A stretch of DNA of 64,000 nt from Hymenobacter nitidus (GTDB taxonomy: Bacteria; Bacteroidota; Bacteroidia; Cytophagales; Hymenobacteraceae). The stretch lies in NCBI RefSeq assembly GCF_020447315.1, contig NZ_JAJADQ010000012.1:124001-188000 (forward strand), read 5' to 3'. The position numbers were made by a program, and so were the translations under genes. A model generated the notes under the pieces. The model did not search any database and was not told the origin of the DNA. It worked only from the letters and a program-made list of their open reading frames with translations. Numbering within the stretch: the first letter of the stretch is position 1; each line of letters starts with the position of its first letter. Positions 8,935-60,736 of the stretch are shown in pieces.

Positions 8935-9025
8935 CGTCATGCTGAGCTTGTCGAAGCATCCCTACCGCCAAAGTAACTCTGAGTTACTCGTGCAGTAGAG
9001 ATACTTCGGCAGGCCCAGCATGACG
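8935..9025. repeat. REP-like inverted repeat (CGTCATGCTGAGC type)
   Basis: The left arm begins CGTCATGCTGAGCTTGTCGA at 8935; the right arm is its inverted partner ending at 9025 (GGCCCAGCATGACG). The arms are 34 bases with 6 differences, all transitions, so much of the stem is kept through G-T pairs. It lies 15 bases past the pheT stop and probably serves as its 3' end. I recall this word as a common intergenic repeat of Hymenobacter-type genomes; that is from memory. Confidence 0.7.
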
Positions 9026-51710: not shown

Positions 51711-54200
51711 CTACTTAGCCTGCTGAATTTCCGCTACGGCCTGGTCGATGGTTTGCTGGGCCTGCTGCACGTTGGGGCCGGTAGTTTTGCGCTCTTTCAC
51801 GCTCTGCAGCAGCCCAATCATGGGCTCGGCGGCGCCCTGGGCCTTAAACTGAATGGCTATGGCCTTGATGCGCTCCACGCCCTGAGCGAAGTTGGTCGGG
51901 TCGTTCAAGCGCACGAGCATGGTAGAAAGGCCTTCCAGCAGTCCGAAACGGGCCTGCAGGGGCGCGGCATCGAACTTGTCGCGCACATAAGCCCACTGCG
52001 TGTCTCCGCCCTGCGCGGCGTACACATTAATTACCGCCGCCAGCGTCGTCTGGTTGTCGCTCGACTCCAAAGCCTTGGCCCGGGCCAGGCCTTTGGCCGG
52101 TGCCACGGCCGTGAGGCCCGCCAGGGCCGCGGCACTCACCTGGTACGACTGGTTATCGAGCTGCTTGGCAAACAGCTTCTCGTCTTTCTTTTCCTTAAGC
52201 TTGGCCAGGGCCATCAGCGCATCGGCGCGCACCGAGTTCTGCGGGTCGTTGGCGGCCATTTTGCGCAGGGTAGGCGCTGCGGCTTTAGCTACCGGCGCTT
52301 TTTCCAGATCCAGGGCGCCTACCGCCACGGAGCGTAGGATATAGAATTTATCCGACAGGGCTTTTACCAGCAGGGTGCGGGCCGCAGCTTCGTCCTGCTT
52401 GTCCTTGGCCGCAATAATGGCCTCGCGCCGGTCGCCGAAAAGCGGGGCGTTGGCGTACTGGTACGCAAACTCCGACAGCGGCTTATTGTCTTTTTTCAGC
52501 CATACGGTCAGCTTGGTGGCGTCCACGTTCACCAGTTCGGGCTTGGCGCTGGCCGCCAGCTGGAAGGTTTCGGTGGCCTGGCGCATCATCACCTGGTGGC
52601 GCTGGGGCTTGCCGTTCACGTACAGATCAATGGTCAGGGGCAGCTGAAACGCGGGGCCTTCCTGAGTTTGCTTGATGGTCACGCTCTGCATTTTCTTGGC
52701 CGCGTCCCAGCTGTAGTCGATGCTGACTTCGGGGTGGCCGGCGTTGTAGTACCATTGGTTGTAGAACCAGTTCAGGTCGCGGCCCGAGGCGGCTTCCATG
52801 GCCAGGCGCATCTGGTGGGCTTCGCCGTTGCCCAGGGCGTTCTGCTTCAGGTACTGGTTCAGGCCGGCAAAGTACACGTCGTCGCCGAGGTAGGTGCGCA
52901 GCATGTCCTGAATAGCGCCGCCCTTCTGGTAGGTCACGGCGTCAAACATTTCCTCTTTGTCGCCATAGTGGAAGCGCACGAGGTTTTTGCCGTAGTTATT
53001 GGGGTTGTTGAGGTAGTTGCGAATGTACTGCAGGCGGTGGGCATCGGCGGCGTCCTTGCCGTACTTGTGCTCGGCCCACAGCGCTTCGCTCATGTCGGCC
53101 ATCGACTCATTCACCGTCAGGTTGCTCCAGCTCTCGGCCGTCACGTAGTCGCCAAACCACTGGTGAAACAGCTCGTGGGCAATAACGGACTGGTTGTTGG
53201 CATACTCCCGGTCAAGCAGCTCGCGGGCATCCATCTGCAGAAACTCGCCGTGCAGGGTGGCCGTGGTGTTTTCCATGGCCCCGCTCACGTAGTCGCGCGT
53301 CACAATCTGGGCGTACTTGTTCCAGGGGTAATCTACGCCCAGGCGCTTGGAGAAAAACTCCAGCATTTCGGGCGTGTCGCCGAAAATCTGCTTGGCGAAG
53401 GGCGCGTACTTGGGCTCCAGATAATAGGTCACGGGCTTGTCGCGCCACTTATCCTCGTAGATTTTAAAGTCGCCGACGGCCATCATAAACAGGTAGGGGG
53501 CGTGGGGCAATTCCATCTTCCAGGTATCGGTGCGCAGGCCCGCGGCAGCCGGTGTCTGGCTCACCAGCTTGCCGTTGCTCAGCGTCACGTACTTGCTGGG
53601 CACCGTCATGCTGATTTCGGAGGTCGTCTTCTGGTTGGGCCTATCGATGGTCGGAAACCAGGCCGACGAGGCTTCCGTCTCGCCCTGGGTCCAGATCTGC
53701 ACCGGCTTGCCCTTCACGGCGCTGTCGGGGTTGATAAAATACAGGCCCTTGGCGTCGGTAATGGCCGCGCTGCCTTTGGCTTTTAGCTCGTCGGGCTTGG
53801 CCGTGTACTCAATATAAATCGTGTAGGGCGTGCCCACTGGCATCATCCGGCCCAGCTGAATGCGCAGATTGCTCTGGTCGGCGTAGTCGTACTTAAGCGG
53901 CGTCTGAGTGGCACCGTCCATCAGGGCCACGGTTTTGATGTCCATGCCCTTGGCGTCGAGGCGCAGCGAGTCGGTGGCGTAGGCGTAGGGCTTGAGCGTG
54001 AGCCAGGCTTTGCCGTTGAGGTAGCGCTTGGCGTAATCGAAGCCCACGGCCAGCTTGGTGTGCACCAGCGCGTTGATTTTGGTGTCGGTAGCGCGGTAGG
54101 GCAGCTGGGGCTCCGAGGCAACGGGCGTAAGCGTTGGCGACTGGGCCCAGCTGGCGGAGGCGGCCAGCAAGCCAACACTCAGGGTAAGAATGTTCTTCAC
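51711..54200 (-). CDS. M1 family aminopeptidase (exported)
   Basis: This is an 829-residue zinc aminopeptidase with signal peptide (residues 1-19). The aminopeptidase N marks are GAMEN at 307-311, HELFH at 342-346, and the third zinc ligand E365 in NESMADM. After the catalytic domain a C-terminal HEAT/ARM-like helical repeat region (about 600-829, rich in AAAPTLRKMAANDPQNSVRADALMALAKL-type units) replaces the usual ERAP-C domain. It is likely periplasmic or surface exposed and digests peptides. The signal and the repeats are directly visible; the substrate range is not. Confidence 0.93.
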   Translation of the reverse strand: MKNILTLSVGLLAASASWAQSPTLTPVASEPQLPYRATDTKINALVHTKLAVGFDYAKRYLNGKAWLTLKPYAYATDSLRLDAKGMDIKTVALMDGATQTPLKYDYADQSNLRIQLGRMMPVGTPYTIYIEYTAKPDELKAKGSAAITDAKGLYFINPDSAVKGKPVQIWTQGETEASSAWFPTIDRPNQKTTSEISMTVPSKYVTLSNGKLVSQTPAAAGLRTDTWKMELPHAPYLFMMAVGDFKIYEDKWRDKPVTYYLEPKYAPFAKQIFGDTPEMLEFFSKRLGVDYPWNKYAQIVTRDYVSGAMENTTATLHGEFLQMDARELLDREYANNQSVIAHELFHQWFGDYVTAESWSNLTVNESMADMSEALWAEHKYGKDAADAHRLQYIRNYLNNPNNYGKNLVRFHYGDKEEMFDAVTYQKGGAIQDMLRTYLGDDVYFAGLNQYLKQNALGNGEAHQMRLAMEAASGRDLNWFYNQWYYNAGHPEVSIDYSWDAAKKMQSVTIKQTQEGPAFQLPLTIDLYVNGKPQRHQVMMRQATETFQLAASAKPELVNVDATKLTVWLKKDNKPLSEFAYQYANAPLFGDRREAIIAAKDKQDEAAARTLLVKALSDKFYILRSVAVGALDLEKAPVAKAAAPTLRKMAANDPQNSVRADALMALAKLKEKKDEKLFAKQLDNQSYQVSAAALAGLTAVAPAKGLARAKALESSDNQTTLAAVINVYAAQGGDTQWAYVRDKFDAAPLQARFGLLEGLSTMLVRLNDPTNFAQGVERIKAIAIQFKAQGAAEPMIGLLQSVKERKTTGPNVQQAQQTIDQAVAEIQQAK

Positions 54201-54279
54201 AGGATGCAGAGAAGGGGAGAGGAGTGGTTTTGCGTGAAAGTAACCGTTCCGGCCCTAAAGGCTGCAATCTGGTGCCGTT

Positions 54280-55200
54280 TTACCCCAGGCCATACTGTTT
54301 TTTGTACAGGCCCGGCGTGATGCCCTCGTACTTTTTGAAGATGGTCTGGAAGTAAGCCGTGTTGTTGAAGCCGGCCCGGAAGCACACATCCGCTACGGTC
54401 GTCACCGGGTTGCGCAGCAGGCGCTTGGCTTCGGCAATACGCTCCCGAATGATGTACTCGACCGGCGTGAGGCCAAACTCGCGCTTAAAGAGGCGAAAAA
54501 AGGTGGCCTTGCTCATGCAGGCCAGCTCACTGAGCTTGTCGACGGTAATCTGCTCGGTGAAGTGGCGCTTGATGTACTGCACCACCTGGGCAAAGCGGTG
54601 GGAGGTCAGGTGCTGGGCGTAGTTATGGAAAATCAGCTGGCGGGCATTGGTCTGCATCAGCCGGATCAGCAGCTCCTGCAGCGTGAAGCCGGCCAGCACA
54701 TCCTTAGCCGCGTGGGTTTCCTGCGACAAGTGCACCAGGCGCTCCAGGGTGCCGGTCAGCTCGGGCGTGTTGGTCAGGTGGGTATTGTTGTTAGCGTCGA
54801 GATGCCAGGGCGTGTGCTCCTCGGCCAGCGGGAACCGCTCGTTGAGCAAGTCCACGGTGTGCCGGATGGTATCCGAGGGAATGGCCACGGCCAGGCACTG
54901 GGTGGGGTTGTCGGGGGTGGCTTCGGGAAAGTCAATTTCCATCACCTGCTGCTCGCCCACAATCACCGACTCGCCCGGCAGGTAGTCGAAGGCGGCTTGC
55001 CCGCTCAGGTGCATCACTTTTTTGCCCCGCAGCATGGTCGTCAGCACCAGGCTGCCCATGCTCAGGGGCACGCGCCGGGCCGTCTGGTGGGTTTCGAAGA
55101 TGTTGAGCTCAAAGGCGTCCAGGCAGTATACGGTGCGGTTTTCAACCAGCGTGGTGAGGTCTTCCTGGGTGTGGAGGGCGGGCAGCAGGCGTGGGTTCAT
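54280..55200 (-). CDS. AraC-family transcriptional regulator
   Basis: The protein has 306 residues from ATG 55200 ([13 protein letters not shown]). The N-terminal 190 residues form an AraC_N-type sensor domain ([29 protein letters not shown]). The C-terminal 100 residues are the two HTH motifs of AraC ([28 protein letters not shown] and [25 protein letters not shown]). It is divergent from the aldehyde dehydrogenase gene with a 137-base shared region. This is the common layout where an AraC activator controls aldehyde dehydrogenase, so that gene is its probable target. Confidence 0.92.
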
Positions 55201-55337
55201 GGCAGCGGATAAATGGGCGGATGGCACCTTCGGGAAACTTGCGACTATCCCCGAGCTTGTTGAGAGAATACTACATATTTTCTGGCAATTTCAGAAGCTA
55301 CCTTGTGAGTAAGTCATCACTCATTAACACCCACCTC

Positions 55338-56865
<1,528 letters not shown>

Positions 56866-56867
<2 letters not shown>

Positions 56868-56942
56868 CAATGAGAGAATGAGTGAATGGAGAATGATTGA
56901 ATTTTGCTCCATCGTTCTCCATTCACTCATTCTCTCATTGTT
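56866..56942. repeat. Long perfect hairpin overlapping the aldehyde dehydrogenase stop codon
   Basis: A 28-bp perfect stem: the left arm starts AACAATGAGAGAATGAGTGA at 56866 (to 56893), and the right arm is its exact inverse at 56915-56942. A G-T pair and three more pairs extend it inward. It includes the stop codons of both convergent genes (ALDH and the four-helix protein). Confidence 0.9.
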
Positions 56943-57304
56943 CTATGGGTACTGCGGGCTTTTTCCAAGACGGAAACAATTTCTAAGTATTCCTGCATCA
57001 GATCAGTTAGGCGAGCATAAGGAACTATACCTGCCTCGCCCAGCAGTTCGAGCCAAAGCTGACTTTCATCGGCTTCCTCAACACAAATACAAAGCTTCGC
57101 AAACTGTTCATTCCCTGAACGAGCCCGGCATACTGCCCGGTAGTTGGCGGCAACAGATGTGGCTGAGCGCAACAGTTGCTTGCCAACTATTTGCGCCTCT
57201 CCGGTTTGGGGCAAGCTCTGGTATAGCTTAATAATTCGTAGCGCCGCATTCTTGGTTCGTTGTTTAAAAGTGCTGATAAATTCAACTTTTGTAGTAGTGT
57301 CCAT
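56927..57304 (-). CDS. Four-helix-bundle protein (23S rRNA-IVS / bAvd-like)
   Basis: The protein has 125 residues from ATG 57304 (MDTTTKVEF); the frame is open 12 codons further. The sequence is that of the four-helix-bundle family first seen in 23S rRNA intervening sequences and related to the accessory protein (bAvd) of diversity-generating retroelements: FKQRTKNAALRIIKLYQSLP, GKQLLRSATSVAANYRAVCRARS and a final helix. The role of free-standing copies is unknown. The AT content is higher than in the flanking genes. The stop lies in the 3' hairpin arm, and the gene sits inside inverted repeats. Confidence 0.85.
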   Translation of the reverse strand: MDTTTKVEFISTFKQRTKNAALRIIKLYQSLPQTGEAQIVGKQLLRSATSVAANYRAVCRARSGNEQFAKLCICVEEADESQLWLELLGEAGIVPYARLTDLMQEYLEIVSVLEKARSTHRTMRE

Positions 57305-57338
57305 TAGCCAAAGAAGTATAACAGCTTCAATATAAGTC

Positions 57339-57359
57339 ATTCAATCATTCTGCCATTCA
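57339..57359. repeat. Right inverted repeat of the four-helix-bundle unit
   Basis: ATTCAATCATTCTGCCATTC begins at 57339; its inverse matches 56883-56902 at every position except for one extra C. The repeat continues loosely to the DUF779 start codon at 57372. Confidence 0.75.
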
Positions 57360-57371
57360 TACATTCACCTC

Positions 57372-57776
57372 ATGCTCCCAACCCCGCGCGTACTCGTCAC
57401 AGCCGCCGCCGAAGCCACCATCGACCTGCTGCGCGACGAGCATGGCCCGCTAATGTTTCACCAGAGCGGGGGCTGCTGCGACGGTTCCTCGCCCATGTGC
57501 TTTGCCAAGGGCGAGTTCCGGGTGGGGGGCAGCGACATGTGGCTGGGCCAGATTCACGGCTGCGACTTTTTCATGAGCGCCAGCCAGTTTGAGTACTGGC
57601 AGCACACCCAGCTCACGGTGGATGTGGTGAAAGGCCGGGGCGCAAGCTTCTCCCTGGAAATCCCGCTGGGCATCCGTTTCCTGATTCGCTCCCGGCTGTT
57701 TACGGAGCAGGAGGAGCAGAACATGGCCCCAGTGTATGACGGGGAAGAATACCTGGAGCGGGCACCGGAAGAATAG
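57372..57776 (+). CDS. DUF779 protein
   Basis: This 134-residue DUF779 protein has the signature HQSGGCCDGSSPMCF (about residues 30-44) with three conserved cysteines, then GQIHGCDFFMSASQFEYW and a closing acidic tail. DUF779 genes are found next to aldehyde dehydrogenases in many bacteria, which matches this locus. The cysteines suggest metal binding or redox, but the function is not established. The first codon coincides with the outer end of the inverted repeat. Confidence 0.92.
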   Translation: MLPTPRVLVTAAAEATIDLLRDEHGPLMFHQSGGCCDGSSPMCFAKGEFRVGGSDMWLGQIHGCDFFMSASQFEYWQHTQLTVDVVKGRGASFSLEIPLGIRFLIRSRLFTEQEEQNMAPVYDGEEYLERAPEE

Positions 57777-57790
57777 AATTGGCTTCGGCC

Positions 57791-57835
57791 AAAAACAGAA
57801 AGCCCCGGCAGCAGCTGCCGGGGCTTTCTGTTTTT
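57791..57835. terminator. Bidirectional terminator, 22-bp perfect stem
   Basis: The arm AAAAACAGAAAGCCCCGGCA plus GC is mirrored exactly around a single central base. Confidence 0.93.
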
Positions 57836-57836
57836 C

Positions 57837-57915
57837 AGTAGCGCGAACTGTGTAGTTCGCGTGGTAGAACGATTATAACGGCGCGGGCCACGCAAACTAC
57901 GCAGTTCGCGCTACT
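57837..57915. repeat. REP-like inverted repeat (AGTAGCGCGAACTG type)
   Basis: The left arm (57837-57864, starting AGTAGCGCGAACTG) and right arm (57888-57915) are 28 bases and match at 26 positions when inverted. It ends 9 bases before the stop of the minus-strand lipoprotein gene. I recall this word as a dispersed repeat in Hymenobacter-type genomes, from memory. Confidence 0.7.
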
Positions 57916-57923
57916 AGTGCCGT

Positions 57924-58391
57924 TTACCGCACCCGAACCGGCAAGCCTTCGAGCTGGGCGTAGCTGAGCTTCCAGGCGCCCTTGGGGTTCTTTTTCCAGA
58001 GCAGGATAAAGTTGCCTTCGCCCACGCCCATAGGCGTGCCGGGCGTAGTCGGAATAACGTCGACGACGTAGGTGCCGCCCTCGTAGGCCGTCTGGGCATC
58101 GGTGCCGGAGGAGGCTACGTTCAGGCGCAGGTTGGAAATGGTGCCCATCGTTTCGCGCACCCAGCGGTTCGATACTTCCGATTTGCCCTGAAAGTGGGTT
58201 TCGCCCTGCAGGAAGTGCACGTCGTCGGCAAACAGGGTGTCGAGCTGAATTGCGTTTTTGCTGTTCCAGGCGCTGATGAATTGCTGGTTGAGCGTTTGCG
58301 CATTGACCGCCGTAGCGGGCGTTTCAGCGGTTTTGGTGCAGGAGGAAGCCAGAACTACCGTCAAGGGCATCATCCAGAGAAGGGACTTCAT
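57924..58391 (-). CDS. NTF2-like lipoprotein (DUF4440/SnoaL-type)
   Basis: This 155-residue lipoprotein has lipobox at Cys18 (VLASSC). The mature part is a small alpha+beta cone fold: QQFISAWNSKNAIQLDTLFADDVHFLQG, then WKLSYAQLEGLPVR-like strands, as in SnoaL/DUF4440/NTF2-like proteins. These bind small ligands or act as scaffold. No catalytic Asp/His pair is evident. Function unknown. The reversed REP-like element lies just 9 bases downstream of its stop. Confidence 0.82.
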   Translation of the reverse strand: MKSLLWMMPLTVVLASSCTKTAETPATAVNAQTLNQQFISAWNSKNAIQLDTLFADDVHFLQGETHFQGKSEVSNRWVRETMGTISNLRLNVASSGTDAQTAYEGGTYVVDVIPTTPGTPMGVGEGNFILLWKKNPKGAWKLSYAQLEGLPVRVR

Positions 58392-58423
58392 ACAGTCAGG
58401 GGTTTGGTGGGGGATGGAAACAA

Positions 58424-58460
58424 TTTCGCCGACTCCGGCACGGGGCTGGAGTCGGCGAAA
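58424..58460 (-). terminator. Terminator of the glycine-zipper gene
   Basis: TTTCGCCGACTCC and GGAGTCGGCGAAA are perfect 13-bp arms around 11 bases. The T tract is short, so termination efficiency is uncertain. Confidence 0.6.
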
Positions 58461-58477
58461 CTAAGCAAAGTCCGGAG

Positions 58478-59026
58478 TTACCAGCTCTTACGACGAACTT
58501 CCGAGGTCGAGTAGGCTTTGTTACGGTCGCCGTACGACTCGTTGGGCAGGTAGCCGGCGGCTACGGGGCCGTTAGCGGCGGTCAGCATCATGGGCGTGTT
58601 GGCGGCAAAGCCGTTGGCCATGGCAGGATACTGCTGCTGTTGTTTCTGGGCCTGAGCGGCCAGGTCGGCTTTACGCTCGGCGGCATCTACGCGGCGGGCC
58701 AGGGCGGCACGCTCGGCGCGGGCCTCAGCGGCGCGGTTGGCAGCAGCGCGGTTGGCGGCCGCTACGCGGGCGGCTTCCTTGCGCTTGTTGTCGGTGCGCT
58801 TACCAATGGCATAGCCTACACCGGCACCAGCCACACCACCTACTACGCCACCCACGGCGCGGTTGCGCTTGTGAATGATGGCACCGGCGGCAGCGCCGCC
58901 CAGACCACCAATAACTGCACCTTTAGCCTGGGGGCTCCATTTCTTTCGTTCCTGGGCCTGGGCTACGTTGCTAAGCACCGAGGTGAGCATCATTACCAGA
59001 GCGAGAATCAAACTGACCTTTTTCAT
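58478..59026 (-). CDS. Glycine-zipper envelope protein
   Basis: This 182-residue protein has signal peptide (1-24, ending AQAQ). A glycine zipper covers residues 33-76 (GAVIGGLGGAAAGAIIH, GGVVGGVAGAGVGYAIGK), of the YMGG-like type that packs in membranes. An Ala/Arg/Glu helix follows (about 85-125, coiled-coil-like). The end is Asn/Ala-rich and has an odd SYGDRNKAYSTSEVRRKSW tail. Likely associated with the envelope. Function unknown. Confidence 0.85.
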   Translation of the reverse strand: MKKVSLILALVMMLTSVLSNVAQAQERKKWSPQAKGAVIGGLGGAAAGAIIHKRNRAVGGVVGGVAGAGVGYAIGKRTDNKRKEAARVAAANRAAANRAAEARAERAALARRVDAAERKADLAAQAQKQQQQYPAMANGFAANTPMMLTAANGPVAAGYLPNESYGDRNKAYSTSEVRRKSW

Positions 59027-59224
59027 GACTATGTTCTTTAAGGTTTCAGAAACACTTCTTCAGTTGTGAGAAAGTGTTTTGCAAGCACCGTGCCAGTACG
59101 GATGCCATCGGGCTACGGTTCTGCTAAGCCTATACGAAGCCGCGCCGGCTCCGGATTAGCGGCCCCAGCCCAAGAAACAGCTGCCAGCAACCCGGATAAG
59201 GCTTCTCAGGGTTCAGCAAAAGGC

Positions 59225-60145
59225 TTATTTCGCCAGCCAGCCGTTGGCATCGAGCCAGTTCTGCAGCCGCTCGGGCCAGTTGTCTTTGGTGGTCTTATTG
59301 TGCAGGCCAAAGCCGTGGCCGCCCTTGGGGTAGAGGTGCATTTCGACCGGCACGCCGGCCCGCAGGCAGGCCTCGTAGAAGCGCAGGCTGTTCTGCACTT
59401 TCACCGTTTTGTCGTCGGCGGCGTGCACCAGAAAGGTGGGCGGCGTCAGGGACGTCACCTGCTGCTCGTTGGAGTAGAGCCGGATTTGCTCGGGCGTGGG
59501 CGCTGTGCCCAGCAGCCGCTCGCGGGAGCCGGCGTGGGCCAGGCTGTCGGTGAAGCTGATAACGGGGTAGAGCAGCACCAGAAAGTCGGGGCGCACAGAG
59601 GGGTTATCCTTCGTGTCGCCGGCGGGGGGGGCGAAATGGGTGCCGGCTGTGGAGGCCAAGTGGCCGCCCGCCGAGAAGCCCATGATGCCCACCCGGGAAG
59701 AGTTGATGCCGTACTCGGTGGCCCGCTGCCGCACCAGGCGCAGGGCCTGCTGGGCATCCAGCAGTGAGGCCGTAGTTTTGTCTGGCTGACTCTGGTCGTT
59801 GGGCAGGCGGTACTTGAGCACGAAGGCCGTGACGCCCATTTCGTTCAGGCGCTTGGCCACGTCGGTGCCCTCACTGTCGATAGAGAGGCGCGTGTAGCCG
59901 CCGCCGGGGCAGATGACGATGGCCGTGCCGTTGGCCTTGTCTTTGGCCGGCCGAAACACCTGCAGCGTGGGCTGCACCACGTTGGAGATGCGCACCCCGC
60001 CGTTGGCCAGCGTAATGCTGCTTTCCTGCAGGTTGGTGGCAATGGAGTTGGGAATGGTGCCCGAGTAGAGCGACACGGTAGCTTGGGCAAACAGCAAGGC
60101 AGGAGCGGCAACAAGGGCCAGAGTGAGGGCAAAGAGCTTTTTCAT
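59225..60145 (-). CDS. Exported alpha/beta hydrolase (esterase/acetyl-xylan esterase-like)
   Basis: This 306-residue hydrolase has signal peptide (1-20). The oxyanion hole is CPGGGYTRLS, and the nucleophile serine is in GIMGFSAGGHLAS (about residue 152). The acid is in HAADDKTV, and the histidine is in YPKGGHGFGLH. This is the BD-FAE/Aes-like branch used on acetylated polysaccharides or small esters. It is likely secreted, since the leader is canonical. The 5' region is GC-rich, with no promoter match seen. Confidence 0.9.
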   Translation of the reverse strand: MKKLFALTLALVAAPALLFAQATVSLYSGTIPNSIATNLQESSITLANGGVRISNVVQPTLQVFRPAKDKANGTAIVICPGGGYTRLSIDSEGTDVAKRLNEMGVTAFVLKYRLPNDQSQPDKTTASLLDAQQALRLVRQRATEYGINSSRVGIMGFSAGGHLASTAGTHFAPPAGDTKDNPSVRPDFLVLLYPVISFTDSLAHAGSRERLLGTAPTPEQIRLYSNEQQVTSLTPPTFLVHAADDKTVKVQNSLRFYEACLRAGVPVEMHLYPKGGHGFGLHNKTTKDNWPERLQNWLDANGWLAK

Positions 60146-60435
60146 ACGCAGGACGGGGCAAGAAGATGAGCGTTGAAAAGAAACGGGCAGCAGCTGGGCG
60201 CGCCGCGGGGCCGCGGAGCCGCACGGGAACAGGACCGCGCTGGTCCCCTCTCGGGCGGGGGCGCAACGCCGGGGCCCTGCACTCTGGGCTGGCCCAACAG
60301 GTGCTCAGCAAAGAAATGCAAAAGCCGGGTAGAACCCGCGCCGCAAAGCCGCGTGGCCGGAAATAAACTACCCCAGCCCCAACCGCCCCGTTCCCGCCCC
60401 GGTATGCGGCTCGCCCAGGGCCCGCCCGGAACATG

Positions 60436-60472
60436 CACAAGCCCCGTCGGCACCTGGCCGGCGGGGCTTGTA
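60436..60472 (-). terminator. Hairpin downstream of the array
   Basis: ACAAGCCCCG (60437-60446) and CGGGGCTTGT (60462-60471) form a 10-bp stem. It follows the array in the direction of the minus-strand gene at 60737, so it may end that transcript after the repeats. No long T run. Confidence 0.5.
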
Positions 60473-60509
60473 GAAAAGCCACTAGCTCTGGCAGGGGGCG
60501 CTATGGTAT

Positions 60510-60733
60510 CTGCACCGGTGCAGGGTGTCTGCCGGATCCTCCGGCTGCCTTCTGCACCGGTGCAGAGCCTGTATCGGCAGTCCGGCAGACACCCTGCACC
60601 GGTGTAGAACCTATTCCGGGTACCCGGCAATCCTTCTGCACCGGTGCACGATGGGTCCAGGCCACCCGGCAGGCTTCCTGCACCGGTGCAGAGCCTGTAC
60701 CGGCCGCCCGGTAGGCATCCTGCACCGGTGCAG
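60510..60733. repeat. Six 14-bp palindromes spaced exactly 42 bp apart
   Basis: CTGCACCGGTGCAG occurs at 60510, 60552, 60594 (one T), 60636 (last base C), 60678 and 60720. The palindrome is nearly fixed while the 28 bases between are only loosely similar (AGCCTGTACCGG-type start, CCGGCAGG-type end). The period of 42 is 4.0 turns of B-DNA. The last copy ends 3 bases before the stop of the minus-strand gene at 60737. Confidence 0.9.
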
Positions 60734-60736
60734 ACG

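Follow-up and report, generated by a model that had tools for sequence, protein, structure and literature searches.

A PF05635 four-helix-bundle gene between matched short-repeat arms: a possible intercistronic relative of rRNA intervening sequences

The PF05635 family, described as functionally uncharacterised in the literature excerpts cited here, includes the protein of the Coxiella intervening sequence (IVS), whose gene is enclosed by an inverted-repeat stem of 28 bp, a substrate of RNase III in vitro; the role and origin of IVSs are still termed unclear in the same excerpt (PMC4990558). In the rRNA genes of CPR bacteria, insertions with and without open reading frames (ORFs) occur at shared sites, as reported in the sections of PMC11270868 considered here, and an excerpt on Flavobacterium columnare places a four-helix-bundle gene between those for guanylate kinase and nicotinic acid mononucleotide adenylyltransferase (PMC5524665). 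We report a PF05635 gene that sits between two protein-coding genes of Hymenobacter nitidus, in a stretch of 64,000 nucleotides (contig NZ_JAJADQ010000012.1, positions 124,001 to 188,000), hereafter the window, to which all coordinates refer unless a contig or locus is named.

The upstream host gene encodes an ExaC-like aldehyde dehydrogenase (ALDH; 55338–56867, plus strand; Pfam Aldedh, E 2.7e-159), which scores 882.5 bits against NF050026 in the profile search, slightly below the cut-off of 900, and the downstream host is a DUF779 gene (57372–57776, plus strand; Pfam DUF779, E 3.4e-47). The 504-nt gap from the ALDH stop to the DUF779 start is wholly occupied, as the preliminary description of this DNA had it, by a four-helix-bundle (4HB) gene and its arms. 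The 4HB gene (125 aa, 56927–57304, minus strand) is antisense to both hosts, and its start codon is consistent with those of its orthologues at the ALDH site. Its product exceeds the cut-offs of both PF05635 (E 3.8e-14, 53.2 bits against 33.8) and TIGR02436 (E 7.3e-22, 77.7 bits against 24), which bears out the assignment to the 23S-rRNA-IVS type of four-helix bundle; among PDB sequences searched with E up to 0.01, 2rld is the one solved sequence relative (E 1.9e-11). The motif R...S...N..E, part of the consensus given in PMC3936711, is present in the focal protein for its R, S and N and absent for its E, is complete in the relative at locus L008, and plays no part in Pfam's definition of PF05635 membership.

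The arms account for the remainder of the gap. On the 3' side of the gene, a left arm made chiefly of octamer units of the ATGNNTGA type (56866–56900, plus strand) and a right arm (56908–56942, plus strand) form a hairpin of 35 nt that is 94% complementary, with the first 28 pairs perfect. This perfect hairpin had been said to take in two stop codons, and it does contain the whole 4HB stop (56927–56929) together with two bases of the ALDH stop TAA (56865–56867), which abuts its end. Folded as DNA, it reaches z -13.9 and was equalled by 0 of 200 shuffles. Also as described, TGAATGGAGAATGATTGAAT at 56883–56902 recurs in inverse orientation, with one extra C, at 57339–57359; the longest exact stretch of this pair in the repeat search is 13 nt (100%, 56890–56902 and 57339–57351), and the distal arm as a whole (57339–57368, plus strand), next to the DUF779 start, comprises about four octamer-like units. 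When up to 3 mismatches are allowed, a 17-mer of the arm motif is matched 3 times in the window, against 0.06 expected, each time at the focal locus. Inverted repeats able to form a stem, one of the features of an IVS, are thus present, and the whole gap folds as RNA far better than shuffles on either strand (z -6.5 and -6.1). The best RNA fold on both strands, however, is the local hairpin and includes no end-to-end stem, which counts against an IVS-like reading of the focal unit. On the minus strand, two promoter-like matches overlap (57315–57356; 2 against 0.6 expected in a consensus scan of one kilobase at the focal locus), in or beside the distal arm and directed into the 4HB gene; given this position just upstream and the antisense orientation, the gene may have a transcript of its own and may be transcribed independently of its hosts. 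Rfam models matched no rRNA family between 55000 and 58000 at E up to 1 and gave the hairpin sub-threshold matches only, all to miRNA families, and neither a DNA search for plasmid matches nor a protein search for phage matches returned any.

Arms of this kind recur around other members of the family. We compared 166 PF05635 loci, chiefly the top scorers of each search rather than random draws, which represent 82 host-gene site clusters in several phyla; they remain from 170 after removal of the duplicates L206 and L207 and of two loci with too-short flanks, and include both L072 and L208, apparently the same DNA. In 56 of 60 loci from the genus, the inverted match between the upstream and downstream flanks outscored all 100 shuffles, with a mean arm score of 25.5 against 12.6 for control flanks. 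In 26 of these 60 the flanks also match directly, at a score above all shuffles, which agrees with the layout A-gene-A'-loop-a' of the focal unit, the others having the inverted pair only. Among named loci from many phyla, the arms beat all 60 shuffles in 60 of 79 (80 less L243; three are ALDH-site copies shared with the 60 genus loci), and in a wider sample of the phylum just 13 of 30 loci beat all shuffles, a result that counts against the reading favoured below. When downstream arms were ranked, a locus's own arm came first in 51 of 166 and among the top three in 84 of 166 (median rank 3); control windows shifted outwards gave 1 and 2 of 157, with a median rank of 49. Because orthologues inflate such pooled counts, one locus was also taken per host site: 52 of 82 then beat all 100 shuffles, and the own arm held first place in 35 of 82 and one of the first three places in 55.

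The arms also share a repeat period. With one locus per site and an arm score of at least 18, the best period is 7 or 8 nt in 57 of 64 elements, against 15 of 74 for the best inverted matches in shifted windows, and the 5' arm has fewer C than G in 56 of 64; the pooled figures are 122 of 135 for the period (23 of 163 control windows) and 127 of 135 for the composition. Chance matches between low-complexity flanks could account for those individual loci that fail to beat their own shuffles, yet as an explanation of the whole they are extremely improbable, being refuted by the motif-count, shuffle, shifted-window and one-per-site controls. Matching arms around PF05635 genes are the rule rather than chance; their letters are specific to each element and their layout recurs across several phyla. 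We found no account of short-repeat arms around PF05635 genes in open-licence PMC papers, and the generality of these armed cassettes, for which the sequence evidence is strong, is what appears to be new; the mechanism set out below is a hypothesis.

Among 140 elements whose arms score at least 18, 88 show end-to-end pairing of the arms in minimum-free-energy RNA folds of the sense strand, against 14 of 323 host windows not selected for arms. We tentatively regard the focal unit as a relative of the rRNA IVS that sits between cistrons and whose arms pair in the mRNA, and suggest that it may work like an IVS. A location in rRNA, a defining trait of the IVS, is lacking here, so that the unit is not classed as one. 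According to this model, a PF05635 gene between inverted arms of degenerate 7–8-nt repeats would fill the stop-to-start gap of a host pair, and the arms would pair in the host transcript either end to end or, as in the focal case, as a hairpin beside the 4HB stop. RNase III would probably cut the long duplex and so yield separate ALDH, cassette and DUF779 messages, and it is proposed that the host tolerates the load because cutting separates these messages. Cassettes would be inherited at their site and often be lost or, presumably, reduced to hairpins, while new sites would rarely be founded, by some putative relocation in which the native leader can give way to arms and spacer. Repeat slippage might change the letters of the arms with pairing kept, and for the putative role of the 4HB protein, binding of the arm duplex is our guess.

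The relation between the two arms of an element could be followed at shared sites. There, in 86 of 108 cases the own arm pair scored above the mean of swapped pairs; at the ALDH site it did so in 2 of 6 only, which counts against the IVS-like reading. In close pairs the own arms won 34 of 64 comparisons, with 10 ties and 20 losses, and these 64 pairs gave no clear sign of short-term compensatory change. The fit of own arms across sites, weak as it is in close pairs, points to arms that match over long times. A bolder reading, which we consider quite unlikely, is that PF05635 genes form multi-phylum intercistronic cassettes whose C-poor arms of 7–8-nt repeats are actively produced or replaced two at a time so as to match. 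The enzyme could be a polymerase or reverse transcriptase for which the 4HB protein, as a relative of Avd, acts as guide, and the arms would be rewritten both in cassettes that stay in place and in those that move between stop and start codons.

The protein family is widespread, with PF05635 matches in 99 of 120 genomes of the genus (up to 9 each) and, across the phylum, in 298 of the 395 genomes sampled. Of 167 named relatives, the best 80 are 44–83% identical to the focal protein and belong to Hymenobacter, Acidobacteria, Nitrospira, Bipolaricaulota, Patescibacteria and others; Hymenobacter sp. BT188, H. armeniacus and Hymenobacter sp. BT18 encode the cassette. Several copies with the same arms, in this genome or its relatives, had been named as support for a mobile element; the focal genome holds one intact PF05635 gene and no second, and arms differ from element to element. 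A partial 4HB piece (C30:23568–23723; residues 71–122, 42% identity over 52 aa) lies about 130 nt from the start of the MFS gene (C30:23854) of an HlyD-MFS pair and is probably decayed, and the arm motif is found elsewhere in the genome in a single octamer-armed, hairpin-only stretch resembling the focal arms with 2–3 mismatches (C21:186576; L037 1070–1175). Where the gene persists, its protein is conserved, with a median dN/dS of 0.065 over 60 pairs (range 0.01–0.33; a further 4 of the 64 pairs were saturated); the single usable pair from the ALDH site gives 0.12. A decaying parasite would not be expected to show such values.

ALDH and DUF779 are the usual neighbours they had been taken for, being adjacent in 110 of 111 loci read, with a contig end at the remaining one (112 genomes have DUF779; G096 was not included and G009 has no ALDH on its contig). 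Their gap holds a 4HB gene in only 5 of 110 genomes. By loose patterns, the classes of which overlap, 65 of the 110 gaps carry a dispersed hairpin of the GTCATGCTGAGC type, 38 a small ORF with an LPVPGxKNPDW-type stretch (e.g. L059, L063 and L066), and 6 non-carrier gaps traces of the octamer arms, an octamer that occurs once in 230 kb of coding flanks. The five carriers are scattered over a tree of 108 hosts (G081 and G093 being excluded for their short sequence), which, like the other trees, was built on few columns: 5 changes are counted, at least 4 of them forced, and a single origin would require 26 losses, or 14 with weak forks collapsed. In the two genomes placed closest to the focal one there, G005 (91% identity) and G037, the gap contains unrelated hairpins.

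Since the 4HB genes at the ALDH site nonetheless form one clade (98/100), a homing element that moved repeatedly sideways into this gap might be considered. We regard it as very unlikely, because the 4HB genes are only 65–72% identical in nucleotides where the ALDH flanks are 80–90% identical and are the more divergent in 9 of 10 pairs (all except G091/G008), and because the octamer-arm traces in the six non-carriers point to losses; recent lateral homing at this site is accordingly disfavoured. Divergence beyond that of the flanks favours an old insertion followed by many losses over recent lateral jumps, and such a history, with the cassette presumably inserted between ALDH and DUF779 long ago, would fit better.

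The strong purifying selection on the protein would fit a resident operon regulator, in which an RNA-binding 4HB protein acts with a terminator- or stability-type hairpin to the benefit of the host at favoured gene pairs, and is often lost. The presence of other hairpins in most ALDH-DUF779 gaps without a 4HB gene speaks for it, as does the grouping of thiolase site 1 with L177, L198 and L200 from another family of the phylum. We nevertheless think it rather unlikely: the focal site is occupied in so few genomes, the consensus scan found no terminator-like site at the focal locus, host functions are unrelated among the sites checked, and the gene is antisense at some sites and sense at others. 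Among the 156 loci whose neighbours could be read, 92 have it in the same direction as both of them and 22, like the focal locus, in the opposite direction to both.

Other sites were examined through the 30 loci nearest the query in each case, from 106 and 115 genomes with matches. HlyD, MFS, thiolase and sigma-54 domains of host genes were confirmed by Pfam; other hosts are those we take to be FadB and MiaB, the FadB-like piece having no Pfam match. The HlyD-MFS gap (families by Pfam) contains a 4HB relative in 15 of 30 loci. At the thiolase site, the leader motif AAGACT occurs in 15 of 19 loci without a 4HB gene and in 0 of 9 with one (2 of 30 unscored), a pattern from which it follows that the cassette replaces the native leader there rather than interrupting it. 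Gaps without a 4HB gene are mostly filled by other sequence. Those at the thiolase site (L319–L348) often hold other long hairpins, some with CTAGTTCCCCTCC arms, and L326 carries a hairpin-only form with heptamer (TTGTCAG) arms. As these sites so commonly carry hairpins but no 4HB gene, the hairpin may be host furniture, which goes against the IVS-like reading. The distance from the host stop to the start of the arm has a median of -4 nt (quartiles -14 and +34, n=124; 65 within -20 to +30), a spread such that a start exactly at the stop is true of the focal element and not in general.

A compact, transposase-free cassette at a gene boundary had been proposed, and this stands, the family being found at many gene pairs and mostly with arms. 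Its mobility stands in part. If the inverted arms were DNA ends, moved in trans or by the element's own protein into gene boundaries, one would understand the 82 site clusters among 166 loci, the patchy occupancy, the hairpin-only forms at the same sites, and the clade of 29 genus copies (99/99) that covers five site clusters and from which it follows that relocation has happened. Recent mobility does not fare as well: copies from one site come close to forming a clade in the protein tree (14 changes across 14 groups, where the minimum is 13 and shuffling gives 40), synonymous distances within sites are often large, the ALDH-site genes are old, as the 9 of 10 pairs above indicate, and no target duplication was noticed in the gaps read by eye. 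As the arms moreover differ between elements, the focal motif recurring in its genome in that one hairpin-only stretch, we judge a mobile element of this kind unlikely, and relocation between sites seems rare. Two findings together had been named as contrary to mobility: that related genomes keep the gene at the ALDH site, which four others do, and that no second copy with similar arms exists, whereas other genomes have octamer-armed 4HB copies at a different site (L073, L074 and L077 among them). A first tree showed the ALDH-site clade nested in the HlyD-MFS copies, and the nesting was not significant; with an AU p of 0.264 for the HlyD-MFS copies staying together, we claim no donor for the ALDH site.

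The window contains further repeats. A short-repeat inverted pair of the AATGTGCTGAAGTGC type (1541–1675; 39 nt, 85% in the repeat search) lies between two genes without a 4HB gene, and a GTCATGCTGAGC hairpin copy is found at 8935–9025, the arm of which has 54 matches in the genome with up to 3 mismatches. A palindrome-rich array around CTGCACCGGTGCAG (60496–60734) has several mutually inverted stretches and includes 4.4 copies of a 42-nt unit at 60552–60734 (TRF). We take the GTCATGCTGAGC hairpin to be a MITE/REP-like dispersed hairpin; hairpins of this sort are likewise intergenic and occupy the same sites as the cassettes, but they have one common sequence in many copies and no 4HB gene, whereas the arms of the cassettes are site-specific.

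Returning to the IVS-like reading, these comparisons suggest that a known parasite of rRNA genes may have a widespread form between ordinary genes. If PF05635 genes generally sit in short-repeat arms, the rRNA IVS would be a special case of a broader genetic unit. Annotators would then have reason for caution, since hairpins and small genes between operon members could prove to be exchangeable cassettes by which the next gene's leader is rewritten.

Among described systems, the 23S rRNA IVSs with an S23/PF05635 ORF of Coxiella and Leptospira are, from the part of PMC4990558 cited, alike in protein family, small size, stem-forming inverted ends and sporadic occurrence; the focal unit differs from them in lying between protein genes, in its antisense gene, and in arms of 7–8-nt repeats that differ from element to element. 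Avd of the diversity-generating retroelements is a PF05635 homologue by sequence and structure, according to the excerpt of PMC10053308, yet neither a reverse transcriptase nor a template repeat was noticed when the ORFs of 53000–60500 were read by eye. The TAACTGA heptamer arrays of Beggiatoaceae are likewise 7-nt repeats that end near start codons; they differ in being direct repeats, and the term four helix bundle is absent from the available text of that report (PMC4679880). The 23S_rRNA_IVP proteins of the CPR insertions belong to the same family and extend over several 16S and 23S insertion sites, their targets differing in being rRNA and the term inverted repeat being absent from the available text (PMC11270868). 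The Pleurocapsa 23S_rRNA_IVP gene, located between cmr3 and cmr2, is likewise intercistronic and within an operon, but is reported as a cas-locus function, with arms unmentioned in the part cited (PMC3936711). As far as these excerpts go, the latter two cases and that of F. columnare (PMC5524665) may be taken as published hints of a wider pattern.
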